Of a DNA stretch of 29,456 nucleotides, positions 8,883 to 26,122 are shown in pieces. Below the pieces are notes generated by a model that made no database searches, had not been told where the DNA came from, and worked only from the letters and a program-made list of their open reading frames with translations. How positions within the stretch are numbered: the first letter of the stretch is position 1; each line of letters opens with the position of its first letter. Both the position numbers and the translations under genes were made by a program. The DNA is from a virus: positions 1 to 29,456 of the IMG/VR virus record IMGVR_UViG_3300047297_000121; one strand, written 5' to 3'.

Positions 8883-10126
8883 CTACGAAGCGAGGTTCGA
8901 TAGAAAATCCATCTACACCTATAAACGGTGACACTTTAGGTGCATTGTTTCAGCGTGGCAGTGCTGCTGGTGTGGCAGTAGATGAATATGCAATCATAGG
9001 TCTTCCTGCTTTTTACCGTGCTACACAAATACTTGGTGGTGTAGTAGCTTCTATTCCTTTTGATATTATTGAGAAACAAGAGAACGGAGGAATAAGAATT
9101 GCGAAGGATCATCCTAACTATAAAGTAGTATCAAGAGAGCCATCTGACTTATATACTTCCCACACTTTTTATAAGACAATGGTTTTGCATTACCTGGCGC
9201 ATGGTGCATTTTACGCAGCCATTAACAGGAATAGCATAACTACAAGAATAAACAGCCTGACTATTCTTAATCCTACTAAAATGGAGATAGGATATAATAG
9301 CCGGAATGAACTTGTTTTTAAAAACAAAGAGAATAATAAGACATATAAAGGTGAGAATATCATCTATATACCTAATCTTGCATGGGATGGCGTTAAGGCG
9401 TTGTTAGTGCCAGACGTTCACCGTGACAATTTTGGGTTAGCTTTAGCAAACAGAAACTACGGTGCTAATTTTTATAAAAATGGTGCGCATCTCAATGGTG
9501 TGCTAAAGCATCCAGGAAGATTAACTAATGAGGCATACGACAGATTAAAAGGTAGCTTTAACCGTGCTTTTGGTGGAAGTCAAAATGCAGGAGGTACTGC
9601 TATTTTAGAGGAAGGTATGGATTTCCAAAAAGTAGGTCTTAATCCATCCGATGCAGCATTTAATGAAACAAAGAAAGCTACTATATCAGATATAGCAAGA
9701 ATAACAGGTGTTCCTGGTGTTCTTTTAGAAGATATGGACAAAGCTACTTTTGGCAATATGGAACAATTAAGCCAAATGTTTGTCAATTATACTATCATGC
9801 CTTTGTGCGAAACCATAGAGGCAGAATTTAATAAGAAGATATTTTTTGAGGCAGAAAAGGACAAGTATACTACTCGTTTTAATCTTGATGGATTACTTCG
9901 TGGCGATATAGCAGCAAGGTCTTCCTACTACACTACGATGCGTAATGTACTGGCAATGTCACCTAATGAGATTAGGATAAAAGAAAACATGAATCCCTAT
10001 GAAGGTGGTGATAGCTATGAGTTACCATTAGCATCTAATATTAAAATAGAGCCATCCTCTGAAGGTATTGCACATGAGCAAGAAGAGGATGAGTTAGATA
10101 TAAACGAAGATAATGGCGCACAGTGA
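8849..10126 (+). CDS. Portal protein, HK97 family
   Basis: Encodes 425 residues. Recognised from the family pattern: IGLPAFYRATQILGGVVASIPFDI near 45-70, YKTMVLHYLAHGAFYAAINRN, FYKNGAHLNGVL, and ARITGVPGVLLEDMDKATFGNMEQLSQMFVNYTIMPLCETIEAEFNKKIF in the C-terminal half, all typical of Phage_portal. It forms the dodecameric ring at the capsid vertex for DNA entry and tail attachment. Start chosen at 8849; the second in-frame ATG at 8867 (MRSFFSTKRG) is possible, as it lies just past the hairpin. The last 40 residues are acidic and probably disordered. The next gene overlaps by 14 bases in another frame. Confidence 0.93.
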   Translation: MAILDTMRSFFSTKRGSIENPSTPINGDTLGALFQRGSAAGVAVDEYAIIGLPAFYRATQILGGVVASIPFDIIEKQENGGIRIAKDHPNYKVVSREPSDLYTSHTFYKTMVLHYLAHGAFYAAINRNSITTRINSLTILNPTKMEIGYNSRNELVFKNKENNKTYKGENIIYIPNLAWDGVKALLVPDVHRDNFGLALANRNYGANFYKNGAHLNGVLKHPGRLTNEAYDRLKGSFNRAFGGSQNAGGTAILEEGMDFQKVGLNPSDAAFNETKKATISDIARITGVPGVLLEDMDKATFGNMEQLSQMFVNYTIMPLCETIEAEFNKKIFFEAEKDKYTTRFNLDGLLRGDIAARSSYYTTMRNVLAMSPNEIRIKENMNPYEGGDSYELPLASNIKIEPSSEGIAHEQEEDELDINEDNGAQ

Positions 10127-11045
10127 TTATCCCCAGGCAGCGACTAACGCTGCAAAGAAAGCAAGGAAACACAAGGAAGACAATGGTTCTTCTTGTGGTA
10201 CATCTGTTGGCTGGACAAGAGCAAGGCAGTTAGCTAACAGAGAGGCATTAAGTGACGATGAGGTTATTAGAACATATAGTTTTTTAAGCAGAGCCAAAGT
10301 ATATGACCAAGGCAAATATTTTGACGAGAACGAGAATGAGATATGTGGAAGCATTATGTACGATGCCTGGGGAGGAAGTAGTATGTTACCTTGGGCAGAA
10401 AGTAGAGCAAAGAAAATAATGGACGAAAGGTCTAAAGAAAATAATATGGAAAAAAGAAGTATAAATTTCGAATTAAGAGCTAAACCGGAAAGCCGTACCA
10501 TCTTTGGCACTGCCACAGTGTTTAATTCTGCCTATGACATGGGTTGGTACGATGAGGAGATGGCACCAGAGTCATTAAATGAAGCTGACATGAAAGATGT
10601 TGTTGCTTTATTTAACCATGACCAAAACATGGTACTTGCCAGGACATCATCTGGCACCTTAAAATTAAATGTTACTGGTAATTCAATGGAGTACGAATTT
10701 GAGGCACCAAACACAACATTAGGTAATGATCTCTTGGAGATGGTTAAACGTGGTGATGTGTATCAAAGTAGTTTTGCTTTTACTGTTGAAAAAGAAGACT
10801 GGCAAGAGAGATCGGGCATGAAACCTAAAAGAGTTATACGGTCAATAAAGAAAGTGTATGATGTTTCTCCTGTAACCTATCCAGCTAATCCAGATACAAT
10901 GGTAGCTAAAAGAAGTTATGAGGCTACTAAGGAGATAGATGAAGATTTACAAAAGGTGATTGATATATCTGTTAGGTCAGAAATTAATATACAGAACGAG
11001 CTACGCAGGAATGCCCTGCATTTATTAAATTTAAAAACAAAATAA
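10113..11045 (+). CDS. HK97-type prohead protease with N-terminal accessory domain
   Basis: Encodes 310 residues. Residues 1 to about 103 (SDYPQAATNAAKKARKH, GWTRARQLANREALS, RTYSFLSRAKVYD, DAWGGSSMLPWAESR) match a small domain often found fused to head proteases or other phage morphogenesis proteins. The protease follows from about 112: MEKRSINFELRAKPESRTIFGTATVFN, ALFNHD with probable catalytic H169, and VYQSSFAF with S219/S220 as nucleophile region, as in Peptidase_S78/U35. It matures the capsid by removing the delta domain of the major capsid protein. An internal ATG at 10446, after an A-rich leader, could yield the protease alone. Confidence 0.92.
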   Translation: MAHSDYPQAATNAAKKARKHKEDNGSSCGTSVGWTRARQLANREALSDDEVIRTYSFLSRAKVYDQGKYFDENENEICGSIMYDAWGGSSMLPWAESRAKKIMDERSKENNMEKRSINFELRAKPESRTIFGTATVFNSAYDMGWYDEEMAPESLNEADMKDVVALFNHDQNMVLARTSSGTLKLNVTGNSMEYEFEAPNTTLGNDLLEMVKRGDVYQSSFAFTVEKEDWQERSGMKPKRVIRSIKKVYDVSPVTYPANPDTMVAKRSYEATKEIDEDLQKVIDISVRSEINIQNELRRNALHLLNLKTK

Positions 11046-12330: not shown

Positions 12331-12891
12331 ATGGCTTGGAAAGTAACAACGGCACCTGCAACAGAAATATTTACGCTACAAGAAGTAAAAGATTATCTTA
12401 AAGTTGATGATTCAACAGAAGATACTCTTATATCTACATTGCTTCAAAGTGCAAGGCAAGCAGCTGAAAGTTATCTTAATCAAGCATTAATTACTCAGAC
12501 TATTACAGAAAAGTTAGACAAGCTTTCTGATCCTACGATTTATTTATCTGTATCTCCTGTTATTGCTGTTTCATCATTTCAATATAAGGATAATGATAAT
12601 ACTACACAAACATTTGCAGCTGCTAATTATGTGGTAGATAATTTTATAAAGCCTGCAAGATTAGCATTAGCATACGGATCAACATGGCCGACATTGTACG
12701 GTAATATAAATGATGTTACCATTACCTATACAGCAGGTTATGGCACAGAGCCAAGCGGTGTACCTGCACAAATAAGACAAGCCATTTTATTAATGGTTAC
12801 AGATGCGTACGATAACAGACAAGATTATGTCAAAAGATTACCAACAGCATCTGAATATTTATTAGACCAATATCGCGTTCAAGTATTATAA
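12331..12891 (+). CDS. Head-tail connector protein (gp6-like)
   Basis: Encodes 186 residues. The N-terminal helices LTLQ-type start (FTLQEVKDYLKVDDSTEDTLISTLLQSARQAAESYLNQAL) and the later VTITYTAGYGTEPSGVPAQIRQAILLMVTDAYDNRQDY match the Phage_connect_1/gp6-like head-tail connector family, which docks under the portal as a ring. The family is often about 100 residues; here a beta-rich insertion between them brings it to 186, as in many related phages. The stop overlaps the next start by one base. Confidence 0.88.
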   Translation: MAWKVTTAPATEIFTLQEVKDYLKVDDSTEDTLISTLLQSARQAAESYLNQALITQTITEKLDKLSDPTIYLSVSPVIAVSSFQYKDNDNTTQTFAAANYVVDNFIKPARLALAYGSTWPTLYGNINDVTITYTAGYGTEPSGVPAQIRQAILLMVTDAYDNRQDYVKRLPTASEYLLDQYRVQVL

Positions 12892-15104
12892 TGAAGTATA
12901 ACAAAAATGAAGTTACTGGAAAAATGCGAGATAGGATTATCTTGCAGAATGTTAACCGGTCACGGAGTTTAACTGGTTTTGCTTCTGAATCTTGGGCAGA
13001 TACGGCTACTATCTGGGCATTTGCAGAAAGCAAGTTACCAGGATCAAACGAGACTATTATAGATGGTAAAAACACGGCAAAGAATGTCTGTGATTTTACC
13101 ATACGTTATATATCCACCATTACCGAGGAATCTCGCGTAGTATGGGGAGATAAGTTATATCAAGTTAAAAATATAAAGGTTAGTCACGATAGAAGGTTTA
13201 TTTCCTTCCAGGGTGTGTTCTACGATTCCTACATCCTTACCGGTGTAAACGTTGCTGCCTCTGTTACAGGCATTGGTACGACATCTGCTAACCTTAAACT
13301 AATAATGTCTGTCATTGGACAGGCAAATGCCATTGCCTCTGCCATCGGTGAAATTGTAACAGCACAACAAGGACTTGTCGAAGTGGCTTCCTCTGTTGTA
13401 GCCAATGGCACATCTACGGCAAATGTTACAAAAGTTATATCTATTGATAGTAGCATTGCAGCAAGTGCTAATGTTAGCGGAGCAGCTACTATAACACAAA
13501 ATATTGCATCAAGCGTACAGGCTGCGGCTACAAGCACAGCAGATGTCCAACTTACTAAAGTATTAGCATCAAGCGTTACTGCTAATGCTACGGCTACAAG
13601 TTCCATTGATGTTATACAACAAGGTCTTGTAACATTTGAGGCAAGTGTTACGGCAACAGGCACAGCTACGGCAGATGTACTAAGAATTGCTACATTAGCA
13701 AGTAGCCCTTCTACGGCTGCCGACACATCTGCCATTGCAACACTTACGCGCGTACTTGAGGCTTCGGCTACGGCTACGGCTCAGACATCTTCCGATGCTC
13801 AATTAACATTGGCAGTAAATGCTTCAGCAACGGCAACGGCTAACACATCGGCTGATGCTCAACTAAGTTACACGGTTAACGCTGCGGCTGATGCTACGGC
13901 TCAAACAAGTGCAGATGCCTTTATCACAAGGATAATAAGTGCAAATGCAACCGCAACGGCAAACAGTAGTGCGGAGGCTGGCATCGGTGTTACCTTTGTC
14001 GCAGCTGCGGTGGCAACGGCTACAAGTAGCGATGCAACATTGTCAAGAACGGCAACTATTGAGGCAAGTGTAACTGGTCAGGCAAATGTCACGGGCGCAA
14101 CGCTTACTACGGTCAATAATGTTGCGGCAAGTGTAAGCGCAGCGGCAACGGTGAGTGCGACGTTGACAAGTGCGGCACCTACTGTAACAGTTGATTACCT
14201 TGTAGTTGCTGGTGGTGGAGGAGGTACTGGTAATTTTGGTGGCGGTGGTGGTGCTGGAGGTTATCGAACATCCGTTGGTACAACTGGTGGCGGAGGTAGT
14301 GAATCAACTTTATATTTAAGTAAAAATATAGCTTATTCAGTAATAGTTGGTGCTGGTGGAAATGGTAGTAATTTATCTGGAATAAGAGGTGATAATGGTA
14401 TTGATTCAAAATTAGATAATATAATATCTAAAGGCGGTGGTGGTGGAGGTGTTCCAACTATTAGTGTTAATAGTTCTGGAGCAACTGGTGGTTCTGGTGG
14501 TGGTGGTGGTGGTGGAAATGATGGTTCTACATCAGCTGCAGGAGGCGCAAAAACATCATCTCCGTTACAAGGTAATAATGGCGGTGATGGCAGTACACCA
14601 CCAAGTACATTATTAGCTGGTGGCGGTGGAGGTGCATCGTCTGCTGGAATAAAAGGTAATACAATATCTGGATATGCTGGAAATGGAGGTAATGGTTTAA
14701 CATCAACAATTGATTCAGTTGCAAGAGGTGGTGGTGGTGGTGGTGGTGCGCATAGTTTAAAAACTGGTGCAGGTTCAGGATTTGATGGAGGTGGAAATGG
14801 TGCTATATCAGGAAATGGTTCATCTGGTACAGATAATTCTGGTGGCGGTGGAGGTGGTGGAAGTAATACTGGTAATGGTGGAAATGGAGGTTCTGGCGTT
14901 GTTATTGTTAGGTATCCAAACACTTATCCTGATTTAACTTTAAGTATTGGTATTCAGTATGCTACACCTGGAAGTAGTGGGGCAACAAATACTAATATAA
15001 CATCAGCTGGAGTTTACGCACCAAGTTATACACCAACAGAGTATAAAGTATATGAATTTAGAGGTACAGGAGGTGTACCACTTAATATTAGTTGGCAAGA
15101 TTAA
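12891..15104 (+). CDS. Head-closure protein fused to repeat stalk and glycine-rich adhesin-like domain (candidate neck fibre)
   Basis: Encodes 737 residues in three parts. Residues 1-115 match the head-tail adaptor/closure family (Phage_HTA): MRDRIILQNVNR, ESWADTATIWAFAESKLPGSNE, FTIRYISTITEESRVVWGDKLYQV, FISFQGVFY. Those proteins normally end here at about 110 residues. Residues about 118-428 are some fifteen repeats of roughly 20 residues, rich in Ala, Ser and Thr. Residues about 433-680 are glycine-rich (YLVVAGGGGG, IVGAGGNGS, GGSGVVIVRYPNT), like phage tip adhesins with packed polyglycine helices. A C-terminal 55-residue piece follows. No stop or frameshift separates the parts. I infer fibres projecting from the neck ring; this needs structural proof. 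Confidence 0.88.
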   Translation: MKYNKNEVTGKMRDRIILQNVNRSRSLTGFASESWADTATIWAFAESKLPGSNETIIDGKNTAKNVCDFTIRYISTITEESRVVWGDKLYQVKNIKVSHDRRFISFQGVFYDSYILTGVNVAASVTGIGTTSANLKLIMSVIGQANAIASAIGEIVTAQQGLVEVASSVVANGTSTANVTKVISIDSSIAASANVSGAATITQNIASSVQAAATSTADVQLTKVLASSVTANATATSSIDVIQQGLVTFEASVTATGTATADVLRIATLASSPSTAADTSAIATLTRVLEASATATAQTSSDAQLTLAVNASATATANTSADAQLSYTVNAAADATAQTSADAFITRIISANATATANSSAEAGIGVTFVAAAVATATSSDATLSRTATIEASVTGQANVTGATLTTVNNVAASVSAAATVSATLTSAAPTVTVDYLVVAGGGGGTGNFGGGGGAGGYRTSVGTTGGGGSESTLYLSKNIAYSVIVGAGGNGSNLSGIRGDNGIDSKLDNIISKGGGGGGVPTISVNSSGATGGSGGGGGGGNDGSTSAAGGAKTSSPLQGNNGGDGSTPPSTLLAGGGGGASSAGIKGNTISGYAGNGGNGLTSTIDSVARGGGGGGGAHSLKTGAGSGFDGGGNGAISGNGSSGTDNSGGGGGGGSNTGNGGNGGSGVVIVRYPNTYPDLTLSIGIQYATPGSSGATNTNITSAGVYAPSYTPTEYKVYEFRGTGGVPLNISWQD
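13242..14174 (+). repeat. About fifteen degenerate 20-residue Ala/Ser/Thr repeats in the head-closure fusion
   Basis: In-frame tandem repeats of about 60 bases. The clearest units are at residues near 285-365, such as VNASATATANTSADAQL followed by VNAAADATAQTSADAFI and ISANATATANSSAEAGI. Each has a hydrophobic start, an alternating Ala/Thr/Ser middle, and an acidic DA/EA turn, which would suit a beta-solenoid or a beta-rich stalk. Codons GCTACGGCT and GCAACGGCA recur, giving a repetitive DNA texture. Confidence 0.75.
14496..14747 (+). repeat. Polyglycine triplet tracts
   Basis: Within the glycine-rich domain, (GGT)n runs occur at 14496-14515 and 14727-14747 (seven units), with shorter runs at 14230-14255 and 14436-14448. 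They are in frame, so slippage would change domain length and not break the gene. Confidence 0.7.
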
Positions 15105-15114
15105 TAAATTTATT

Positions 15115-15525
15115 ATGGCACATTATGTAACGTTAGATGAAAATAATATTGTAATTTCTGGTGGACCAGGAATAGATGAAGATATTTTATTGGAAGGTCT
15201 TGAACCTGAATTATTTTATGGAAATGTTGTTGGCAAAGTTGTTAAAAGAACGTCATATAACACAAGAGGTGGCATCCATTATCAATTGGACAATAACACT
15301 CCTTCCATTGACCAAAGCAAGGCTTTTAGAAAAAACTATGCAGGAATTGGCTATTATTATGATAGCATTCGCGACGCATTCATTCCCCCTAAGCCTTTTT
15401 CCTCGTGGACATTGAACGAGGAGTCATGCCTATGGGATAGCCCTGTGCCTTATCCCAATGATGGTAAAAGGTACACATGGAATGAAGATATTATAAATTG
15501 GATTGAATTAAACCTAACACAATGA
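15115..15525 (+). CDS. Putative virion-associated protein, environmental-phage family
   Basis: 136 residues from the ATG at 15115 (MAHYVTLDENN), ten bases after the fusion gene; an upstream ATG at 15052 lies inside it and is unlikely. The sequence RTSYNTRGGIHYQ, AFRKNYAGIGYYYDSIRDAFIPPKPFSSWTLNEESCLWDSPVPYPNDGKRYTWNEDI resembles a family I recall from marine and freshwater cyanophages and related viruses, where it is usually near structural genes. Its role is not established. It overlaps the following glycosyltransferase by four bases (ATGA at 15522-15525), suggesting coupled translation. Confidence 0.8.
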   Translation: MAHYVTLDENNIVISGGPGIDEDILLEGLEPELFYGNVVGKVVKRTSYNTRGGIHYQLDNNTPSIDQSKAFRKNYAGIGYYYDSIRDAFIPPKPFSSWTLNEESCLWDSPVPYPNDGKRYTWNEDIINWIELNLTQ

Positions 15526-16493
15526 AACTTGGCATTTTTACAAACATTGAGGCTCCTGCTACCGACTTCTATCGGACAGTTGGCACATATAGTTACCTTG
15601 AACACGAGATAAAGTACCTTGACATACAGAATACAAAGTGGTATGATATATTTAGTTGCGATGTCATTATAGCTAAATCACCAAACGGGCAGTTATACCT
15701 TGATATGCTCCGTGACTGTAAGCGCATGGGCAAGAAGATAATTATTGACCATGACGATAACTTGCACAGAACAGAGCGAGTTAATCCATCACACAAGGCA
15801 TTGTCCACAGATGCATCGAAAAAGACAGTAGAGGAATGTTTATCACTGGCTAACTTTGTAAGCTATTCTACTCCTGCCTTACAGGACTATTACAAAGGCT
15901 TTCACGAATGCCCAAGCCTTGTTGTTCCTAATGCGTGGAATCCAATATTACAGCCTTTCATGCCAGTGCCAAAGATAGAGGATAAGGTCAGAGTTATATG
16001 GAGGGGAAGTATGCATCACCTGGATGACATTGCAACGATAAAGGATGAGATAAACACGATGGCAGCATCAGATGATTTTGATGTAGCTATGCTTGGAATA
16101 CAGGACTTTTTAATGGGACATTTATTCCCAAAGGTTTATGTGAAGGAATGGACAAATAATTTATTTAGCTACTTTGAATTATTAAATAACAGTCAATGTC
16201 ACTACGGTGTATTTCCGTTACTCAAGAATGACTTTAACTTAGCTAAAAGCAATATATTTGCTATTGAGATGTTAGCCGCAGGAGGAGTAGTGTTAGCTCC
16301 TATTGGCATACCAGAGTACAATATACCTGGTGTATTGAAATACGATAAATTTAATGATGTGTTACGCATCATGAAAGATAACACATTTGACAGAGAAAAC
16401 ATTGTCAAAGAGGGAAGGCAATACCTTAACGATGTTTTGCGCATTGACAAGGTAAACCAATTAAGGCAACAAATTTTAAACAATTTAAACTGA
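15522..16493 (+). CDS. Glycosyltransferase-like protein, copy 2, in the neck region
   Basis: Encodes 323 residues, paralogous to the protein at 4000-4989 over its whole length. Shared features: the ATDFYR start segment, KRMGKKIIIDHDDNL acidic cluster near 68-82, VVPNAWNP, RVIWRGSMHHLDD, NDFNLAKSNIFAIEMLAAGG, and the terminal GRQYLNDVLRID. The fold is probably GT-B. It is translationally coupled to the small virion-type gene before it and sits in the middle of the head-tail genes, which suggests action on a virion component. The adjacent Ser/Thr-rich repeat protein is a natural candidate, but that is inference. Confidence 0.75.
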   Translation: MKLGIFTNIEAPATDFYRTVGTYSYLEHEIKYLDIQNTKWYDIFSCDVIIAKSPNGQLYLDMLRDCKRMGKKIIIDHDDNLHRTERVNPSHKALSTDASKKTVEECLSLANFVSYSTPALQDYYKGFHECPSLVVPNAWNPILQPFMPVPKIEDKVRVIWRGSMHHLDDIATIKDEINTMAASDDFDVAMLGIQDFLMGHLFPKVYVKEWTNNLFSYFELLNNSQCHYGVFPLLKNDFNLAKSNIFAIEMLAAGGVVLAPIGIPEYNIPGVLKYDKFNDVLRIMKDNTFDRENIVKEGRQYLNDVLRIDKVNQLRQQILNNLN

Positions 16494-16499
16494 TAAATT

Positions 16500-16898
16500 A
16501 TGGCAGCTTTTAGTGATTATTTAGAAGACCAAATAACTGGATGGATAGCAGGAACAACATTTGCTGGTGCTCCATCTGCAACATTTGTACAGTTATTTAA
16601 TGGCGATCCTACGGATGGCGCATCTGGTGGCACTGCAATTTTTTCAAGAGTAAGTGTAGCAAGTGGTGCAGGTTCATGGACAAGGGGAACAGGTGGAGCT
16701 GGTACAATAACCAATGCTTCAGCAATTACCATTACTTCATCTGCAACAGCTACGGCTTCTGCAACGCACTTTGCTGTATTTACATCATCAACAGGTGGTG
16801 ATAAATTATTCTATGGTGCATTGACTACTGCTAAAACTATTGCAAGTGGTGATGAAGTTAAATTTAATGCAAGTTCATTGACTTTAACTATTGCTTAA
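16500..16898 (+). CDS. Putative small virion protein
   Basis: Encodes 132 residues, Gly/Ala/Thr/Ser-rich and beta-prone, with no Cys. Its pattern (FSDYLEDQITGWIAG, then FVQLFNGDPTDGASGG, then ITNASAITITSSATA, THFAVFTSSTGGDKLFYGALTTAKTIASGDEVKF) resembles a short protein family seen in many environmental tailed phages and often labelled fibre or structural protein without proof. It lies seven bases after the glycosyltransferase and before the tail-completion gene. A decoration or fibre component is plausible. Confidence 0.7.
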   Translation: MAAFSDYLEDQITGWIAGTTFAGAPSATFVQLFNGDPTDGASGGTAIFSRVSVASGAGSWTRGTGGAGTITNASAITITSSATATASATHFAVFTSSTGGDKLFYGALTTAKTIASGDEVKFNASSLTLTIA

Positions 16899-16947: not shown

Positions 16948-17505
16948 ATGTTTATATCACAGGCAAAGTTAAATAGGCTAAAAAGATTGGAAGGCAAGAC
17001 TAATAAAAAAGGTCAGCCTTTAGCTATTTCTAATTTTGCAGAATCTGTTATTGAACTTGATAACATTATGCAGCAGATTACAATTACAAAGAGAAAAGAA
17101 ATAGTAAAACAAGCAGAGCCTATTGCCCTTGCTGCTTATAAAAATCTTGTTCCTAAATCAAATAAGCCGCATAAATTTTATGTAAAAGGTAAAGGTTTAA
17201 GGTATAATATTATGCCAGGTAACTTGCAGCGATCTATACAAATAGTTAGCGATGTTAAAAACTTTAAATACCTTACCTCTGCTATCGGCCCAGTTTACAA
17301 AGACGCAGGAAAAGGAGTTACATTAGGTAGTGATTCTAAATCAGATGGCTTTTACGCTCACATGGTTTACGGTAACACTAAAGCATGGGTAAAGAGAGTT
17401 AAAAATGCAGCTGAAAGAGCAAGTCAAATGGCAGTAGTAAATAAAATGTCTGGTGAGGCTCTTAAAATGGCTAAACAATATCCTCGTAAATTCTGGGAGT
17501 TATGA
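16948..17505 (+). CDS. Tail completion protein, HK97 gp10-like
   Basis: Encodes 185 residues. The pattern matches the HK97-gp10 family: a helical N-terminal half (VIELDNIMQQITITKRKEIVKQAEPIALAAYKNLVP), then GNLQRSIQIV, IGPVYKDAG and YAHMVYGNTKAWVKRVKNAA, which in the family form the core of the head-tail joining protein. It would complete the tail end that docks to the head. It overlaps the next gene by four bases (ATGA). Assignment rests on pattern and on gene order before the DUF3168 gene. Confidence 0.75.
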   Translation: MFISQAKLNRLKRLEGKTNKKGQPLAISNFAESVIELDNIMQQITITKRKEIVKQAEPIALAAYKNLVPKSNKPHKFYVKGKGLRYNIMPGNLQRSIQIVSDVKNFKYLTSAIGPVYKDAGKGVTLGSDSKSDGFYAHMVYGNTKAWVKRVKNAAERASQMAVVNKMSGEALKMAKQYPRKFWEL

Positions 17506-17891
17506 TAGGTAAATTAATTTATAATAGATTAGCAACTGAAGGAAGTATAACGGCTTATATTGGTACAAAGATATATCCTGACATAACTCCGCAGAATGTG
17601 CAATATCCTTTTGTTGTTTACACTATTACAAATAGTTTACCAGTTGATTTTAAAGATGGACAAAGTAATCTGGAAGAAATTACACTACAAATAGATATAT
17701 ATACTCAAAGTTACGATGATACACAAGACTTAGCTAATCTTATCAGGAATAGATTAGACAGATTTACAGGCATTGTAGAAGGTGTTGAAGTGCAAACTAT
17801 CAAATATATGTCAAGTGATTCACAAGTTTTTAACGCAGAATTATCAGTATATTGGATGAGTATTGATTTTATGGCAAAAATGAAAAGATGA
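17502..17891 (+). CDS. Tail terminator protein (DUF3168 family)
   Basis: Encodes 129 residues. Typical features are an N-terminal helix (LIYNRLATEGSITAYIG), the IYPDITPQNVQYPFVVYTI segment, then EEITLQIDIYTQSYDDTQDLANLIRNRLD and a final beta hairpin (FNAELSVYWMSIDFMA), as in DUF3168 proteins, which cap the tail tube. It overlaps the preceding and the following gene by four bases each, so translation is probably coupled. Confidence 0.88.
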   Translation: MIGKLIYNRLATEGSITAYIGTKIYPDITPQNVQYPFVVYTITNSLPVDFKDGQSNLEEITLQIDIYTQSYDDTQDLANLIRNRLDRFTGIVEGVEVQTIKYMSSDSQVFNAELSVYWMSIDFMAKMKR

Positions 17892-18583: not shown

Positions 18584-18952
18584 ATGAAAACAATAACAAT
18601 AGCCAACACTTCCATACCGATTAAATTTGGTATGTATGTGTTAGGTACATTTCTAAGGGAGAGGAAACTTAAATTAAGTGACCTTTCCCTTTTAGGAGAA
18701 GATCTCTTACTTGCCCTTGAACTTGCCTTTACCGGTGTTGAACATGGTTACAAAGCAAAAGGGGAGAAATGCCCTTACACTTTGCAATCTTTCTGCGACC
18801 TTGTAGACACAGACATGGGTGGTATAACGCGGATCATGGAGATGATTTCAAATGAGATTTCACCACCAGAAGATGAGAGCCAAAAAAACGTAGTGGCGAA
18901 GGGGGAGAACTCACTCTTGAATACATCGAACGCTTTTGTTTCGGAGTTTTAA
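18584..18952 (+). CDS. Tail assembly chaperone, short form
   Basis: Encodes 122 residues when read without frameshift. The N-terminal part (TIANTSIPIKFGMYVLGTFLRERKLKLSDL) and the helical middle (LLLALELAFTGVEHGYKA) fit the gpG-like chaperone family that coats the tape measure during tail assembly. A slippery site occurs in frame at 18883-18889, at residues 100-102. Reading past it without a shift gives 20 further residues and stops at 18952; with a -1 shift the protein continues into the next frame. Confidence 0.85.
   Translation: MKTITIANTSIPIKFGMYVLGTFLRERKLKLSDLSLLGEDLLLALELAFTGVEHGYKAKGEKCPYTLQSFCDLVDTDMGGITRIMEMISNEISPPEDESQKNVVAKGENSLLNTSNAFVSEF
18883..18889 (+). other. -1 programmed frameshift site A AAA AAC
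   Basis: The zero frame reads CAA AAA AAC at 18881-18889, so the heptamer A AAA AAC is in the right phase for a -1 shift. After the shift, reading resumes at 18889 (CGT AGT GGC) and stays open to the stop at 19228-19230. I see no convincing downstream hairpin, only a four-base pairing (AGTG/CACT). Confidence 0.85.
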
Positions 18953-18978: not shown

Positions 18979-19230
18979 ATGAGTTTTAGAGAAGTTGTTA
19001 TAGCTATGCAAGGTTATAACAATCACTTTGAACAACAGGAGCAAACAGAGTGGGAACGAATGAGATGGCAAACAACTTTACTTTTAAATGTTCACACAGC
19101 AAAAGGTAAGAGTTTAAAGCCAAAAGATTTGATTGAGTTTCCCTGGGAGAATCCGATAAAAAAAGAAACTAACAGAAGTTTGACAAATAATGACAAGTCA
19201 ATATTTGACAAATGGGATAAAGAAGCATAA
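18979..19230 (+). CDS. Tail assembly chaperone, frameshift extension (T part)
   Basis: The listed range begins at the first ATG, but the open frame runs back without stops to the slippery site at 18889. The extension reads GELTLEYIERFCFGVLRF, then PPSQYYEMSFREVVIAMQGY, which is the usual start of the T domain in GT-type chaperones, so the natural product is a fusion of about 215 residues (102 from the first frame, 113 from this one). An 83-residue product from the internal ATG alone is less likely. Stop overlaps the tape measure start (TAATG). Confidence 0.85.
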   Translation: MSFREVVIAMQGYNNHFEQQEQTEWERMRWQTTLLLNVHTAKGKSLKPKDLIEFPWENPIKKETNRSLTNNDKSIFDKWDKEA

Positions 19231-21284
19231 TGGCAATAGGTAAACTACTTTTAAAACTTGGCATTGATACTACTAACCTTGACAAGGAGTTAGGTAAAGT
19301 AGAAAAGTCTATGACAAAGTTTGGACAAAATATGTCCAATCTTGGCTCTACCTTAACTCAGTCATTGACATTACCTATCATTGGTGTTGGTGCTGCTGCT
19401 CTGAAATCCTTTGCTGATATGGAAAAGTTGCAGAATGGATTAATGGCAATTATGGGAAGTAGCGAGGATGCGGCTGTTGAAATGGAAAAGCTCCGCAAAG
19501 TTGCCGAGAATCCAGGCCTTGCCCTTCCCGAAGTTGTTAAAGCCTCTGCCTCATTACAAAGTGTAGGAATGAATGCCGATGCTGCAAGGGAAACTATTAC
19601 ACAGTTTGGTAATGCCGTAGCAAGGGCAGGAGGTGGTGCAGAACAATTTGATGGAGTAGTATTAGCACTGTCACAGATAAGCGCAGTTGGCAAGGTTACA
19701 CAGGAAGATCTTAATCAAATAAAAGAAAGACTGCCAGAGTTTGCCAGAGTAATGAAAGAGGAGTTTGGTGTAGTGACTGCCGAAGGAATTAGAGAGTTAG
19801 GAATAAGTAGTGAAGAATTTATACAAAGGTCTGTTGGTGCTTTAGGTAATTTGGAAAGAGCCAATGGAGGCTTAGCTAATACGTTTGATAATTTAAAAGA
19901 TAACGTAGGCGCATCATTAGCAGAATTAGGCAAAGCAATAAATGAAACATTAAATTTAGAGGCAGTTGCCGCAGCATTAAGCGCAGGATTGCAAAGATTA
20001 GTAGATGGTTTTAAGTCACTTAATCCGGAGACACAAGGATTTATTGTAAAGGCTGGTTTACTTGTTGCAGCTTTAGGGCCTGCAATCTTTATAGTAGGTA
20101 AATTGATTACTACTTTTGGAGCATTGATTGGTACTACTCGTCTAATAATGGATACTGTTAAAAAATTATCTACGGTAATAACTGGTGCCTTCGCAAAAAT
20201 ACTTGCTAACCCTGCTATACTTGGTGTTACTTTAGCCATTGCTGCGGTGGGTGCTATTGCCTTATATGTTTATGATAACTGGCAAGCATTTAGTGATAGA
20301 TTTAAAAATATTTGGATAAATATAAAGAACTCCGTAATGCAAGGAGTAACCTTTGTTTTAGGTAAATTAGATAATTTACAAAAAGCATTAGGATTAGATT
20401 TGTTTGATTTGTCAGGCATGACAAAATATCAAGAAGAACAGAGAGTAGTTGCAGCGGAGTTTAAAACAATAGGAGAAACAGTTGATAGCCTTAAAGGTAA
20501 ATTTAAAAGTCTATTCATGGCTGCACCTGGCAAAGGTGGAGGAGGTGGTGCAACAGAAGGTACAGGTGAATTAGTATTTGGTGATGGTGGCGCACCAACA
20601 GGAGGAGGAACTGGAGGAGGTGCAGGAGTTAAAGGTGCATTAGCTACTCCAATAGATACTGTAAATTTATTACCTACATTAGATTTGCTACCAGATAAAT
20701 TAGAAAGTATATCAGCTGCTAACGAAAGATTAAAACAAACAAATGAAGATGTAGCTAATTCATTTAATAAAATTACACCTGCTGTAAAATCTGCCGCAGA
20801 TATGTTAACTCCTATGCAAGCTATATTAGTAGAAGGTATAAATACTTTTGCTGATTTAGCGGCTGGTGGTTTTGAAAGCATGAAAGAACTTGCACAAGCA
20901 GTTAAAAAAAGTGTTGCTGAAATAATAGGTAATCTTATTAGAATGTTTGTAGCTAAAGCATTAGCAGGTCTTCCTCCTACACCTTTTATGTTAGCCATTG
21001 CACCAGCAATAGCAGCATTAGCAGGTAATTTAGGTAAAAGTTTAATAATGAAGATTGGCGCTCCTAAATTAGCCGAAGGAGGTCTTGCCTATGGCCCAAC
21101 CATGGCAACGGTGGGAGACAACAGAAATGCCCGTGTTGATCCAGAAGTTATTGCACCTTTATCAAAGTTAAAATCAATGATGGGAGACATGGGAATAGGT
21201 GGTACATTGGAAACAAGGATAAGCGGAAATGATTTGATTATATTGTTAAATAGGTCACAGAAGGGACTAAATAGAATACAATAA
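19230..21284 (+). CDS. Tape measure protein
   Basis: Encodes 684 residues. The N terminus (LLLKLGIDTTNLDKELGKVEKSMTKFGQNMSNLGSTLT) and the following AFADMEKLQNGLMAIMG, VASLQSVGMNADAARETITQFGNAVARAGGG and LNQIKERLPEFARVM segments are the classic tape-measure N-terminal domain. Three hydrophobic stretches follow (about 273-305, 325-350, 570-600), as expected. A Gly-rich linker lies near 430-465. At roughly 0.15 nm per residue it would set a tail of about 100 nm, which supports a siphovirus. Confidence 0.93.
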   Translation: MAIGKLLLKLGIDTTNLDKELGKVEKSMTKFGQNMSNLGSTLTQSLTLPIIGVGAAALKSFADMEKLQNGLMAIMGSSEDAAVEMEKLRKVAENPGLALPEVVKASASLQSVGMNADAARETITQFGNAVARAGGGAEQFDGVVLALSQISAVGKVTQEDLNQIKERLPEFARVMKEEFGVVTAEGIRELGISSEEFIQRSVGALGNLERANGGLANTFDNLKDNVGASLAELGKAINETLNLEAVAAALSAGLQRLVDGFKSLNPETQGFIVKAGLLVAALGPAIFIVGKLITTFGALIGTTRLIMDTVKKLSTVITGAFAKILANPAILGVTLAIAAVGAIALYVYDNWQAFSDRFKNIWINIKNSVMQGVTFVLGKLDNLQKALGLDLFDLSGMTKYQEEQRVVAAEFKTIGETVDSLKGKFKSLFMAAPGKGGGGGATEGTGELVFGDGGAPTGGGTGGGAGVKGALATPIDTVNLLPTLDLLPDKLESISAANERLKQTNEDVANSFNKITPAVKSAADMLTPMQAILVEGINTFADLAAGGFESMKELAQAVKKSVAEIIGNLIRMFVAKALAGLPPTPFMLAIAPAIAALAGNLGKSLIMKIGAPKLAEGGLAYGPTMATVGDNRNARVDPEVIAPLSKLKSMMGDMGIGGTLETRISGNDLIILLNRSQKGLNRIQ

Positions 21285-23506
21285 TGGCAATAAGGTTTTC
21301 GACAACAGTATATAATGAAAAGAGTAGAAAGATTACTGTATCTATAAAAGATAGTGCTTTCTCCGGTACTGTGAAAACATTTGATACCATTGGTTTGCAG
21401 TTGCAATACGACAGTGAAAGTCAGCAAGGACAAGAAAGATTTACACCTATCATTGGCTCTCGTTGTTCATTGTCTTTACTTATAAATAATAATGATCTTC
21501 AGACCTTACTGCTTGACATTGGCTTGGCAGTTGAGGGAAGATTTACAATGGAGCTGACAGCGTATGAGGATGATAATACTACTGTATCATTTAAATGGTA
21601 TGGTTATATAGTTACAGACTTAGTAGAGTTTGAAGATATACCATTGTCAATAGGTTACCAGGCACAAATATCTGCAATAGATGGATTAGGTTGGTTAAAG
21701 ACATTAGATTATAAAAGTGCGGTTGGGCCTTATAACGGGCAGGACACAGTTGTGCAACATATTTTAAACTGTCTTAATCAGCTGGATTTTGTACAAGAAA
21801 ACTTGGTGGCAAATAGTTTGCCAGTGTTACATACTATATTTAACTGGCATGAAAATACCACAGCATATAGTGCAAATAGTGACTATTCATTATTGACAGT
21901 AATTCAACATAGAGCATTTTATCACAAAGACACAAAGAATAATTATATATATCAAAGTTGCTATGATGTATTAAAAAAGATATGTCAGACATTTGGAGCA
22001 AGATTATTATTTAGTGGCAACCAATATTGGTTTGTACAAGTAAACGAATATTCAAGAACACCTGGAACAAAAAGGTATTTTAAATATAGTGCATTAGGTG
22101 TTCAATCGGCTGGCACATTTACCACAGATTTAACGCTTTCTAATATTCAAACAAATCTACATGGAAGTGATTTAATGAGATTAAGCGGTGGTAAATGGAC
22201 TTATTATCCTGCTTTGAAAAATGTAGTTATACGGTACAATCATTTTGCTAAACAAAACTTATTAGCAGGTGTAGAATTTAATTATGCTACAAACAGCACA
22301 CCTATAACTACAATTACTCCGACATTGGATGCGTCTAATGCTGATGCTCGTTTGTCATATACAGGAATACTTGGCTTTTATGCACAGGCTTTAAATCCTG
22401 CTAACTTTGAACCGTTTCAATTTGTATTTGCAGTTAAGGTAGCATCTATAATTAATAGCTTTCCATTGCAAGGTTTTGAATCAGCTAACTGGACATTAGG
22501 CAGCGGATGGTTAATTGATAACAAAATACTTGAAGGTACTTTAATAGCATCAGAAGCATATTATACGACATTTACAGTTACCTCTGGTAGAAAGTATTAT
22601 GTTAAAATTAAAGTTGAAATTGATAACGCTGGTAGTTTAAGGTTAAGATTAGGAGGAGTAACTAAAACGATAACAGAAAGTGGCGATTACGATTATGTAA
22701 TTACATCTACTAATACGGATACATTAAAATTAGATAGTGTATCATCACCAGGCTTTACCGGTAAAATAAAGTCTTTACAAGTAAAACAAGAAAACAAGTA
22801 TTTAAAAAGAGGTGTAACCTATACTAATGGTTTTAACTTTCAGTTAGAGCCTGCAACGTGGGAAAATAGCTTTTATGAATACGAATTTAACACAGAAACA
22901 ATAACGGCAGATGCTGCTTTTGTTGCCTATAAAACTATCACATTTGATACCTTAGATATTCCAGAAAGTGCAGAATATGTTTGGGAGATGAGATTGAAAT
23001 CAATGCGCAATGAGGCAGGCACAAGTATAATATCAAACTTTACTATATCTTATTTATTAAGCAGTAATTACCTTGAATTTCTACCTACTGGTGCAGTCTC
23101 TGGACAAAGTGATATTCTTGAATACGGTTCTGACAATGACGATAAATCCTCCACAGTATTTAGCCTTGATACTTACCTTGGTGATGGGCCAAGCAAAACA
23201 ACAGATGGAGGATTAAAAGTATTGGAATCTGGTAGTTATGAAAATAGTAGCAGTTGGGATGTTAGTAGTGGATCTGGCTTTAATAATGTTACACAGTTAT
23301 TAGTAAATGAGGTTATACGCGGTCAACTTACTCCAAAGCTCCGCATGGTAGATATGCCATTCCAAAATCTATCAGTTGACAATCCATACCTTCCTCATAA
23401 GGTCATAGAATATTCATCCGGATATTACGTTTTTGAAAGAGGATCATTTGATTTAAAAACAGAGATTTGGCAAGGTGATTACTTTAAAATAGAATTAGAT
23501 GCCTAA
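21284..23506 (+). CDS. Putative distal tail/tail-tip protein with inserted beta-sandwich
   Basis: Encodes 740 residues. First protein after the tape measure, where distal tail or tip proteins are found. The N-terminal third (IRFSTTVYNEKSRKITVSI, then FTPIIGSRCSLSLLIN, FKWYGYIVTDLVEFEDIPLSIGYQAQISAIDGL, YDVLKKICQTFGARLLF) looks like a tip protein common in Bacteroidota phages. Residues about 400-510 (ANWTLGSGWLIDN, then YYTTFTVTSGRKYYVKI, SLRLRLGGVTKTI, GFTGKIKSLQVK) have the layout of a carbohydrate-binding jelly roll. No catalytic motif seen. The assignment is by position and by domain texture. Confidence 0.65.
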   Translation: MAIRFSTTVYNEKSRKITVSIKDSAFSGTVKTFDTIGLQLQYDSESQQGQERFTPIIGSRCSLSLLINNNDLQTLLLDIGLAVEGRFTMELTAYEDDNTTVSFKWYGYIVTDLVEFEDIPLSIGYQAQISAIDGLGWLKTLDYKSAVGPYNGQDTVVQHILNCLNQLDFVQENLVANSLPVLHTIFNWHENTTAYSANSDYSLLTVIQHRAFYHKDTKNNYIYQSCYDVLKKICQTFGARLLFSGNQYWFVQVNEYSRTPGTKRYFKYSALGVQSAGTFTTDLTLSNIQTNLHGSDLMRLSGGKWTYYPALKNVVIRYNHFAKQNLLAGVEFNYATNSTPITTITPTLDASNADARLSYTGILGFYAQALNPANFEPFQFVFAVKVASIINSFPLQGFESANWTLGSGWLIDNKILEGTLIASEAYYTTFTVTSGRKYYVKIKVEIDNAGSLRLRLGGVTKTITESGDYDYVITSTNTDTLKLDSVSSPGFTGKIKSLQVKQENKYLKRGVTYTNGFNFQLEPATWENSFYEYEFNTETITADAAFVAYKTITFDTLDIPESAEYVWEMRLKSMRNEAGTSIISNFTISYLLSSNYLEFLPTGAVSGQSDILEYGSDNDDKSSTVFSLDTYLGDGPSKTTDGGLKVLESGSYENSSSWDVSSGSGFNNVTQLLVNEVIRGQLTPKLRMVDMPFQNLSVDNPYLPHKVIEYSSGYYVFERGSFDLKTEIWQGDYFKIELDA

Positions 23507-23870
23507 CTATACAGAACGCACAGTATTATCGAAACCTCGTGACTTTAACCAGGTGGCAAACAATGCCGGTAGTGGTGGAGTGGTAAATAATAATGTCACG
23601 GAGACTATAAACAATGTGACAGTTACAGGTTCTGCCATATCAATATTTAATCAAGAATTTCTTGCTACTTCCTCCAATGTTTTAACCTGGACACAGAACA
23701 ATGGCACTCTGCCAGTGACTAATTTAAATGCCTCTGTTCATGTATATCAGAACGGGCAGAAATTAATAGAAAGTCAATATGTAATAACGGCACCTGCAAC
23801 TATTACAATTGATTCTAACACACATTACGATGGCAGTAATTATATTGTCTTTGCAATAAACATAAACTAA
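23499..23870 (+). CDS. Small tail protein, unknown
   Basis: Encodes 123 residues; starts inside the last eight bases of the tip gene. The middle is beta-rich (VNNNVTETINNVTVTGSAISIFNQEF, then ASVHVYQNGQKLIESQYVITAPATITID). The Asn/Val/Thr-rich texture fits a fibre or tip accessory protein. The stop overlaps the following fibre gene start (TAATG). Function unknown. Confidence 0.65.
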   Translation: MPNYTERTVLSKPRDFNQVANNAGSGGVVNNNVTETINNVTVTGSAISIFNQEFLATSSNVLTWTQNNGTLPVTNLNASVHVYQNGQKLIESQYVITAPATITIDSNTHYDGSNYIVFAININ

Positions 23871-26122
23871 TGGAAGAAATAAAGCCAAAGAAAGAAAGAA
23901 AGTTTTTAAAAGCAATAGGAGACATTGCCCTTGTCTTGTTCCGTGAGCTTGTTCTTGGCATCGGGAAAAAGGTCATAAACAAAGTAGGCAACAAACGACA
24001 AAGCCTTGCTATTGCCTTTGTATTAGTAGCAGGTATTTCCTATGCTGCCATTGATTCTATTCCTTATCCTATTACAGGCAATAAGCAAAGGTTAGGATGG
24101 CAGACAACGGGCAACGGATTAGTTTACCGTGGCACTGCCGCAGACACAGTCACAAAGCCAAGCAATTACACAAACAAAGATATTAAGGCTTATTTGTTGG
24201 TTGATACTGTAAACAATGTTATGTATAGTTATATAGCATCAAAAGGTGGTTGGCAGTTTAATAACACTGATACAGTCATTATTCAAGGTGCGACTATGCC
24301 ATTTGATTCCATTACCTTTAACACGGCAAAAGATGGCACTGTGGGAGTAGGAGAAATGGAATATAACGATACACAAGGCTCTCTTATACAAGGATTGAAG
24401 GGAGGGAATGTTACTAATGTAATAGGTCAGCAATTACACCAACGTGTAAATAATCGCACTGGAGCAACACTTAATAAAGGTGATGTTGTTTATTTATCTG
24501 GTAGCCAGGGCAACAGGATAACAGTTGCAAAAGCACTTGCCACAAGTGATCCGACATCGGCTAATACTTTTGGTATTGTTGCTGAGAGTATAGCGGACAA
24601 TCAAAGTGGCTATGTTATTACAGAAGGTTTAATTACTGGTTTAAACACATCATCTTTAACGCAAGATAGTGCTGTTTATTTATCCGGTACAACGGCAGGC
24701 GCATTGACATCTACCAAGCCACAGGCACCTATTCATGGTGTTTATATTGGTGTGTGTGTTAAAACAAATGCAGGAAGCGGAGAGGTGTTTGTTAAAATAA
24801 GAAATGGTTTGGAACTCGACGAGCTTCACGATGTGCAAATTTCTTCACCAGTTGACAAGGCTTCTTTATATTATAAAAGTGATGAGGGACTTTGGCGAGA
24901 TACAACTCCTGCACTTTTAGTAAGTGATACGGCTTCGATGCTTACAAATTATTTGCGTAGTGGTGTAGCCGCTTCGACTTATCAGGCAAAATTAAACGGC
25001 ACAGGCTTTGTAAAAGCATCAGGAACAACAATAACTTATGATAATTCAACCTATTTAACATCATCAACTGGAGTTACAACCTTTTCTGCTGGCACAACTG
25101 GTTTTACACCTTCAACTACAACATCTGGAGCAATAACATTAGCAGGCACATTGGCTATTGCGAACGGTGGTACCGGTGCAACAACAGCTGCAAACGCAAG
25201 AACAAACCTTGGCGCAACAGTAAGAGGTGCAAATACTTTTCTATTGACAGATATTGGTGCTATTTCATTCCTTCGCTACAATGCTGATAACACGGTAAGC
25301 CAAAGAGCAGCTGATGGAATGAGGAGTGATTTAGGAGGCACAACTATTGGACAGTCAATGTTTACTTTAACTAATCCTTCTGCCGTTACATTTCCACGAT
25401 TCAACGCTGATAATACAGTAAGCTCATTAAATGCTACTGATTTTAGAACGGCTATTGGAGCAGGTACAGGTAATGGAAATGGAACGGTTACAAATGTAAC
25501 AGGAACATTGCCTATATCAGTTGCCAATGGAACTACCACACCATCTATTACTATAGCCAATGCTTCGACAACTGCCAGCGGTGTAGTGACAACTGGAACG
25601 CAAAGTATGGCAGGCAATAAAACATTTACCGGTGATCTTGCAACAAGTCAAGCATTTAGCGCAACAGGATTTAGCACATTAACAGGAGGAGCAAGTATTG
25701 GAACAATGGCAACTACATCAAGTTTAACCCATGTACTTGGTGTAAATAGTAGTAATGCGATTGGTGAGGTTGCATTGGGAAATTTGTCTATAAGTTCCGG
25801 AACATTAAATGTAAATGTTTCGGATGGAATTAAAACATCAAGCGGAACTGTTGCACTTGATGTGTTTAGGACAATTACTGTTGGTACTGATTTCCCAAAC
25901 ACAAGTGCTCAATCATCAAGTGATATTACAGCTACAGTTACAGGTGCAGTAGCAGGTCAACCTGTATGGTTAGGAGTTCCAAATTCTGCAGTATCTGCAA
26001 ATACATCATATTCTGCCTGGGTTAGTGCATCAAATACAGTAACCATTAGATTTAATAATTATTCCTCTGCTTCGGTAAATCCAAGTAGTGGAAGTTTTTA
26101 TGTTGTAGTAATTAATTTGTAA
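23870..26122 (+). CDS. Tail fibre protein with N-terminal membrane/signal segment
   Basis: Encodes 750 residues. After a basic N-terminal region (1-44) comes one hydrophobic segment, SLAIAFVLVAGISYA at about 45-59, which looks like a signal peptide or anchor. It is followed by RLGWQTTGNGLVYRG near 74-88. IANGGTGATTAANARTNLG near 430-448 is a phage tail-fibre repeat motif, and two copies of a 41-residue repeat (each ending NADNTVS plus a variable stretch) follow at about 444-525. The C-terminal 80 residues form a beta-rich tip (WLGVPNSAVSANTSYSAW). It is the likely host-recognition fibre. The N-terminal hydrophobic segment is odd for a virion protein. Confidence 0.8.
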   Translation: MEEIKPKKERKFLKAIGDIALVLFRELVLGIGKKVINKVGNKRQSLAIAFVLVAGISYAAIDSIPYPITGNKQRLGWQTTGNGLVYRGTAADTVTKPSNYTNKDIKAYLLVDTVNNVMYSYIASKGGWQFNNTDTVIIQGATMPFDSITFNTAKDGTVGVGEMEYNDTQGSLIQGLKGGNVTNVIGQQLHQRVNNRTGATLNKGDVVYLSGSQGNRITVAKALATSDPTSANTFGIVAESIADNQSGYVITEGLITGLNTSSLTQDSAVYLSGTTAGALTSTKPQAPIHGVYIGVCVKTNAGSGEVFVKIRNGLELDELHDVQISSPVDKASLYYKSDEGLWRDTTPALLVSDTASMLTNYLRSGVAASTYQAKLNGTGFVKASGTTITYDNSTYLTSSTGVTTFSAGTTGFTPSTTTSGAITLAGTLAIANGGTGATTAANARTNLGATVRGANTFLLTDIGAISFLRYNADNTVSQRAADGMRSDLGGTTIGQSMFTLTNPSAVTFPRFNADNTVSSLNATDFRTAIGAGTGNGNGTVTNVTGTLPISVANGTTTPSITIANASTTASGVVTTGTQSMAGNKTFTGDLATSQAFSATGFSTLTGGASIGTMATTSSLTHVLGVNSSNAIGEVALGNLSISSGTLNVNVSDGIKTSSGTVALDVFRTITVGTDFPNTSAQSSSDITATVTGAVAGQPVWLGVPNSAVSANTSYSAWVSASNTVTIRFNNYSSASVNPSSGSFYVVVINL

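Follow-up and report, generated by a model that had tools for sequence, protein, structure and literature searches.

A head-closure protein continued by a repeat stalk and an exchangeable tip: a candidate neck fibre of siphophage-like viruses

The window analysed here is the whole of the IMG/VR virus record IMGVR_UViG_3300047297_000121 (29,456 bases), and the element in question is an open reading frame (ORF) at 12891-15104 on the + strand, whose 737 codons are open without interruption and encode, in this order, a head-closure (Hc1, or stopper) domain, a stalk of 20-residue repeats and a glycine-rich tip. PHROG_2295, a family without an assigned function, matches residues 100-704 of the 737-aa fusion (2e-38). 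The gene order of the window runs normally from head to tail: terminase, portal, protease, capsid, adaptor, the Hc1 fusion and a partner gene, then a glycosyltransferase-like gene, a Gp80-like gene, a gene for a 185-aa protein, the tail terminator and the major tail protein, and lastly the tape measure, tail-tip genes, holin and amidase. The record, like the others used below, is linear and possibly a fragment. When bacterial genomes were searched, the Hc1 profile had no match there and the portal found only 29% matches, in two metagenome-assembled genomes of Spirochaetae.

Residues 1-115 (12891-13235, +) make up the Hc1 domain, the anchor of the putative fibre. PF05521 (Phage_HCP) matches residues 10-103 (5e-14; profile positions 4-98 of 106), as does PHROG_25, "head closure Hc1" (1e-13), and a Foldseek search with the AlphaFold model of this domain returns the SPP1 gp16 stopper 7z4w, the gene transfer agent (GTA) stopper 6tba and 2kz4, with TM-scores by target length of about 0.6; other phage neck proteins were matched as well. 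The gene sits where stoppers do, between the gp6/Ad1-like head-tail adaptor that forms the ring above Hc1 (12331-12891, +; PF05135 5e-11, PHROG_442 7e-35) and the tail terminator that forms the ring below it (17502-17891, +; PF11367 2e-13, PHROG_347 3e-19). The known Hc1 members that we checked are all standalone proteins of 109-114 aa (109-113 aa for the cultured examples).

The Hc1 domain is followed by the stalk, residues 116-431 (13236-14183, +), made of about 15 repeats over 309 aa, of which Ala, Ser and Thr account for 55%. Its BLOSUM autocorrelation over these 309 aa is 0.96 at an offset of 20 residues, 0.78 at 40 and 0.79 at 60, and does not exceed 0.42 elsewhere. No helix is predicted in residues 116-431. 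Among relatives, stalk lengths cluster at 107, 131, 151, 170, 294-300 and 311-323 aa, in steps of about 20 residues, and the stalk of a far relative, locus L166, is collinear with that of the window (42% identical in the alignment). Residues 432-737 and the stop codon (14184-15104, +) form the tip: PF21722 (Gly_rich_2) matches residues 424-675 (6e-16), the model has a predicted local distance difference test (pLDDT) score of mostly 80-93, and Foldseek finds the Bxb1 tail tip (9d93_Q, 6e-4) and viral glycine-rich proteins, down to 9e-23. An earlier note on this DNA had read residues 1-115 as a complete closure protein, a boundary that proves exact, since standalone homologues stop at residue 114. 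It had also described an unbroken run from there into about fifteen 20-residue repeats and a glycine-rich domain, which the open frame from 12891 to 15104, the 20-residue autocorrelation and the PF21722 match bear out.

This architecture is recurrent. An IMG/VR scan with residues 1-116 found 43 loci with 90-100% identity, and every one of them that is uncut by a contig end, except the decayed locus L043, runs in frame into a stalk and a tip; the fused proteins of this set have a total length of 478-722 aa, and the fusion likewise recurs among Hc1 relatives down to 89% identity. Hc1 identity is 74-76% in a second fused lineage and 39% in a third, L166, clearly a different phage, which shares the order Hc1-stalk-tip, partner, Gp80-like gene, gp10-like gene and terminator. 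No stop or frameshift between residues 110 and 125, which the earlier note had named as fatal to the fusion, occurs in any fused relative that covers the junction; L043 is the one record with stops, and these begin only at residue 160. The ratio of non-synonymous to synonymous substitution (dN/dS), obtained for a handful of pairs by a simple counting method, rises from base to tip (0.01-0.08 for Hc1, 0.21-0.29 for the stalk, 0.41-0.72 for the tip), and purifying selection acts on the reading frame of the stalk. These data bear on the suspicion that an assembly error or mosaic has joined Hc1 to an unrelated fibre gene, which the metagenomic origin of the record invites, as does the ease with which repetitive stalk and glycine-rich DNA are misassembled. 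Against it stand the selection on the stalk and a junction common to more than 30 distinct proteins, which come from many independent metagenomes, so that we accord an artefact a vanishingly small chance; the recurrence rules out a chimera, a misassembly and a lost stop codon alike.

Scans with the adaptor and portal led to a second group of phages, with bare necks, whose full-length Hc1 (36-41% identical) ends at residue 114 and is followed directly by the gp10-like gene and the tail terminator. A separate stalk gene was looked for in these sisters and none lies between Hc1 and the gp10-like gene or terminator. One of these sisters is the bare-neck phage L103. It and the window are nearly identical in terminase (97%), portal (98%), protease (99%) and capsid (99%), and again downstream in the gp10-like protein (94%), the major tail protein (100%) and the tape measure (92%), whereas in the neck the adaptor is 80% identical, Hc1 41% (bare in L103, with 114 aa) and the terminator 72%; L103 has none of the partner, glycosyltransferase-like and Gp80-like genes. 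Seven such comparisons gave adaptor identities to the window of 84-98% in three fused phages and 77-81% in four bare-neck ones, and terminator identities of 83-93% and 71-74%, respectively; in the gp10-like and tail-tip genes, identity was unlinked to neck type. In known necks Hc1 is in contact with the adaptor and terminator rings, and it is these that vary along with the fusion; no other genomic evidence speaks as strongly for an action of the extension at the neck. The closure-stalk-adhesin architecture announced by the earlier note is real, recurrent and under selection, and near-identical sisters place the change in a neck cassette.

The 14 records with an Hc1 fusion, several of them 33-38 kb long, each contain PF05521 once, always in a long ORF with an open frame of 529-726 aa, and the four bare-neck records examined, about 37-38 kb in length, likewise have it once, in a 122-residue open frame. 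A single match per record, located on the fusion, means that the fused protein is the closure protein of these phages, as far as records that may be incomplete can tell, and rules out an extra Hc1 paralogue. ORF 12891-15104, the sole Hc1 identified in this phage, is in our view likely to serve at the same time as the base of a neck fibre with an exchangeable tip. Published structures from lambda, 80alpha, R4C and 812 show a hexameric Hc1/stopper ring (PMC10721106, PMC11661146, PMC10276861, PMC12886913), so six fibre-bearing subunits are expected; a count of twelve was dropped in favour of six for the same reason. Each subunit of the ring had been predicted to carry a fibre: the anchor is supported by the single Hc1 and the neck swap, and the prediction needs amending in that there would be six subunits and a fibre that is probably made of several proteins.

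The fusion might also be a polyprotein, from which a protease or an internal translation start would free the stalk and tip, leaving Hc1 to work alone and the fibre to be mounted elsewhere or to serve as a decoy. The phage does encode a prohead protease (10113-11045), the monomer model has a flexible junction after residue 115, and the stalk and tip also occur on another N-terminal domain (see below), so that Hc1 is not strictly needed. As for an internal start, the only candidates near the junction are a GTG at residue 109, inside Hc1, and an ATG at residue 139; neither has a clear ribosome-binding site in the 20 bases upstream, and Met 139 is missing from the L160 and L166 lineages, so that no candidate is convincing and none is conserved. 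Moreover, relatives with as little as 39% Hc1 identity still have the junction in frame, and the adaptor and terminator co-vary with the fusion, as would be expected if the extension altered the surface of the ring. We hold processing to be very unlikely and retain the intact, ring-borne fibre as the preferred reading.

The tip had been called glycine-rich, which PF21722 supports in the window and which does not extend to its relatives, where that domain is exchanged for others. Indeed, four unrelated tip classes, assigned like the partner classes by simple sequence patterns of our own, are found on nearly the same Hc1 and stalk: glycine-rich, LamG (PF13385, up to 2e-21), GH54-like (PF09206, up to 2e-10) and "IGDGLT" (PHROG_17104). 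Between the window and locus L006, Hc1 is 100% and the stalk 87% identical, and the tips are unrelated. The PF09206 match covers only about 75 of 315 positions, at the start of the catalytic fold, so the GH54-like tip is probably a lectin-like sandwich rather than an enzyme.

Three of the four tip classes have their own gene behind them. In the window this is the partner gene (15115-15525, +; PHROG_7759, 1e-32), a putative tip chaperone or cofactor; its ORF is open from 15052, with the ATG at 15115 ("MAHY..") as the likely true start, and its product is variable in the N-terminal half and conserved in the C-terminal half. A PHROG_7759-type gene follows 18 of 20 glycine-rich tips and no tip of another class, a "MQSINGYKYT"-type gene follows all five GH54-like tips and a "MIGYKLT"-type gene all three IGDGLT tips; no partner gene follows LamG tips. 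Overall, the tip class agrees with the next gene in 28 of 30 loci, a result that none of 200,000 shuffles matched. Elsewhere in IMG/VR, 57 of the 66 PHROG_7759-type genes examined lie directly behind a glycine-rich ORF; several of these ORFs are further Hc1 fusions, and most of the others have different N-termini, some of the tail-fibre type. At L185:4001, in a large phage, a PHROG_7759-type partner stands behind a gene of the other partner class (MAFINGYKYT..), an arrangement that points to a tandem of two tip-partner modules.

The Gp80-like gene (16500-16898, +), a probable fibre bead, is linked to the fusion as a whole. Its product is covered over positions 1-128 of 128 by PF23140, "Podophage GP4 fiber I protein gp80" (1e-23), and matches PDB 8jou chain a (2e-12). 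All 20 fused loci in which 2.3 kb or more of downstream sequence is available have the gene, as do 10 further fused loci, and it occurs in none of 48 bare-neck loci, 44 of which span the whole stretch to the terminator (co-occurrence was assessed by a Fisher test). The fibre is thus probably not a single protein, judging from the Gp80-like and tip-specific partner genes that travel with the fusion. By contrast with these two, the glycosyltransferase-like gene (15522-16493, +; PHROG_7162, 5e-21) is optional: it occurs in only some fused loci, independently of tip class, and also in the L160-type lineage. Its product might modify the Ser/Thr-rich stalk.

Among the remaining genes, the gp10-like 185-aa protein (16948-17505, +), placed by gene position at neck or tail completion, occurs with both fused and bare necks, and is replaced elsewhere by 205- or 193-aa alternatives. 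Two small genes between the major tail protein and the tape measure (18584-18952 and 18979-19230) occupy the place of the gpG/gpGT chaperone pair of lambda. The large tail-tip proteins at 21284-23506 and 23870-26122 have no PHROG match, one of them has a sub-threshold BppL_N match, and they vary strongly between sister phages, independently of neck type. At L146:10588-10970 the major tail protein is split into two overlapping ORFs by an apparent frameshift, probably a sequencing error.

In other phages the stalk, tips, partners and Gp80-like gene are carried by another N-terminal domain, about 170 residues long (MNIREISDVFKD...), for example at L262:5022-6764, L288:4309-6570 and L275:5082-6758 and in about a dozen more loci. 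This stalk aligns with that of the window at 37% identity over 313 aa (E 8e-36, low-complexity filter off). Searches of Pfam, PHROG and the PDB gave no informative match to this domain, and PF05521 was searched for in these phages and not found; the gene lies upstream of the major tail genes, in a neck-like position.

What the tip does is a separate question from where it is mounted. A true neck fibre could be no host adhesin at all and, like T4 fibritin, retain the tail fibres, sense conditions or aid assembly. The neck fibres of T4 and A-1(L) are not considered primary receptor binders (PMC10966104), and the fibre is not essential, being absent from many sister phages and lost in L043. At that locus (L043:7128-7900) Hc1 is intact, the stalk is a remnant with stops, the tip is lost together with almost the whole partner, and the Gp80-like gene is kept, a pattern of decay which indicates that the fibre is dispensable and the closure domain is not. 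On the other hand, the swapping of glycine-rich, LamG and GH54-like, lectin-type tips and the tip dN/dS given above are typical of receptor binding, and the glycine-rich domain of Pam3 gp24 has been assigned to host recognition (PMC9608196). A fibre without an adhesive function therefore seems to us unlikely, and we keep host binding as the preferred role of the tip.

The following mechanism can be proposed. The N-terminal domain would join an Hc1 hexamer between the adaptor and terminator rings, as homology, gene order and the co-variation of the neighbouring rings suggest. Its C-terminus would run on as an extended rope of about 15 repeats, directed sideways out of the neck. In phage 812, the termini of the stopper touch decoration proteins on the neck's outer surface (PMC12886913). 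The Gp80-like protein probably coats, orders or stiffens the rope in the manner of beads: the stalk is proposed as a GP4-type rope with Gp80 because of the homology to GP4 fibre I and the strict co-occurrence. The rope would end in an exchangeable receptor-binding domain, glycine-rich here, whose folding or function, to judge from linkage, would need the dedicated downstream partner. Six ropes leaving the ring could provide the neck with as many as six additional adhesins, or with two if they are trimeric, and these would bind the host and give a lateral grip additional to that of the tail tip. We lean slightly towards the wider proposition that in siphophage-like viruses the closure ring serves as the base of a fibre made of a Gp80-beaded rope and an interchangeable adhesin with its matching partner, so that the exchange of a single cassette could give a phage a neck adhesin, remove it or direct it to another target, with the tail unchanged, and that the same module is also mounted on an unrelated protein in neck position.

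Several points weigh against this interpretation. All loci are metagenomic assemblies, from which the neck appendage is predicted. Proteolytic separation of the stalk and tip from Hc1 would, to the small extent that we credit it, detach the fibre from the ring. The AlphaFold monomer leaves the stalk disordered (pLDDT about 30), with no shaft structure, and the stalk could be a flexible tether; since it does not fold as a monomer, a rope or a shaft made of several chains is likelier than a rod that folds by itself, and a disordered monomer model is what would be expected of a chain that needs partners. A search for the GP4 rope by sequence gave no PDB match to the stalk, either alone or as a profile, and the binding of Gp80 to it is inferred from linkage. 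A BLAST search of 50,697 phage records at E 1e-3 returned nothing that matches the stalk and tip, although the low-complexity filter, which removes much of the stalk, weakens this result. The partner is modelled with a pLDDT of 83 and shows neither a recognisable or confident fold match nor a sequence match to solved structures, which makes "chaperone" a conjecture. Finally, the tip of the A-1(L) neck fibre, a carbohydrate-binding, lectin-like domain, failed to bind its host (PMC10966104), and adhesion should therefore not be taken for granted in a neck fibre.

The anchoring and role of known neck whiskers and collars are poorly understood, and those described are attached to collar proteins that are separate from them. 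In the present case the sequence leaves no doubt that the anchor is covalent. Near-identical sisters with and without the fibre amount to a natural experiment, and tip swaps on a near-constant stalk offer a direct route to testing host binding by neck fibres. The results suggest that "head closure" genes, which annotation of host range passes over, encode some of the adhesins of metagenomic phages, and they provide a likely role for PHROG_2295, PHROG_7759 and PHROG_240/Gp80. The earlier note knew of no described closure-whisker fusion, and none was found in the literature searched, outside which most subscription papers lie, or in the 50,697 phage records.

With the Hc1 proteins or stoppers HK97 gp7, SPP1 gp16, lambda gpFII and the GTA stopper, the protein shares profile, fold, position between adaptor and terminator and single copy, and it differs from them by the more than 600 residues of stalk and tip behind the domain. 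T4 fibritin is a separate protein, an alpha-helical coiled-coil trimer. Its whiskers are neck appendages too, whereas here residues 116-431 lack a predicted helix, no fibritin family is matched, and the base is the stopper itself, to which the stalk is fused. In podophage GP4, gp80 dimers are reportedly joined by an elongated rope protein. According to PMC13243795, gp80 dimers form a fibril through which an adhesin is connected with the tail collar; a homologue of this fibre I protein (gp80, PDB 8jou) is co-inherited with the fibre here, but the GP4 fibril is held by a collar built of separate proteins and the putative rope is fused to the stopper. The stopper of Staphylococcus phage 812 resembles ours in its outward-facing elaboration, with termini that meet neck decoration proteins near the whisker density, but the elaboration is a single extra beta-sandwich domain and the whiskers are separate, unidentified proteins (PMC12886913). 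The bead-chain neck fibres of the Anabaena myophage A-1(L), as described, resemble the fibre proposed here in being long, flexible, anchored at the neck, tipped with a lectin-like domain and built of several proteins; unlike the fusion, they are anchored non-covalently, as gp82 trimers on a 15-mer collar, and are encoded far from other structural genes (PMC10966104). Pam3 gp24 with its chaperone gp25 combines a glycine-rich receptor-binding tip with a gp25 that, like the partner described here, is variable in its N-terminal half and conserved in its C-terminal half (PMC9608196), and the Bxb1 tail tip (9d93) is also glycine-rich; both of these tips are mounted on the baseplate or tail tip and not on the neck. 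Neck fibres, glycine-rich tips with chaperones and Gp80 fibrils are each already known singly; it is their covalent mounting on the head-closure protein that had no precedent in the papers and phage records searched.

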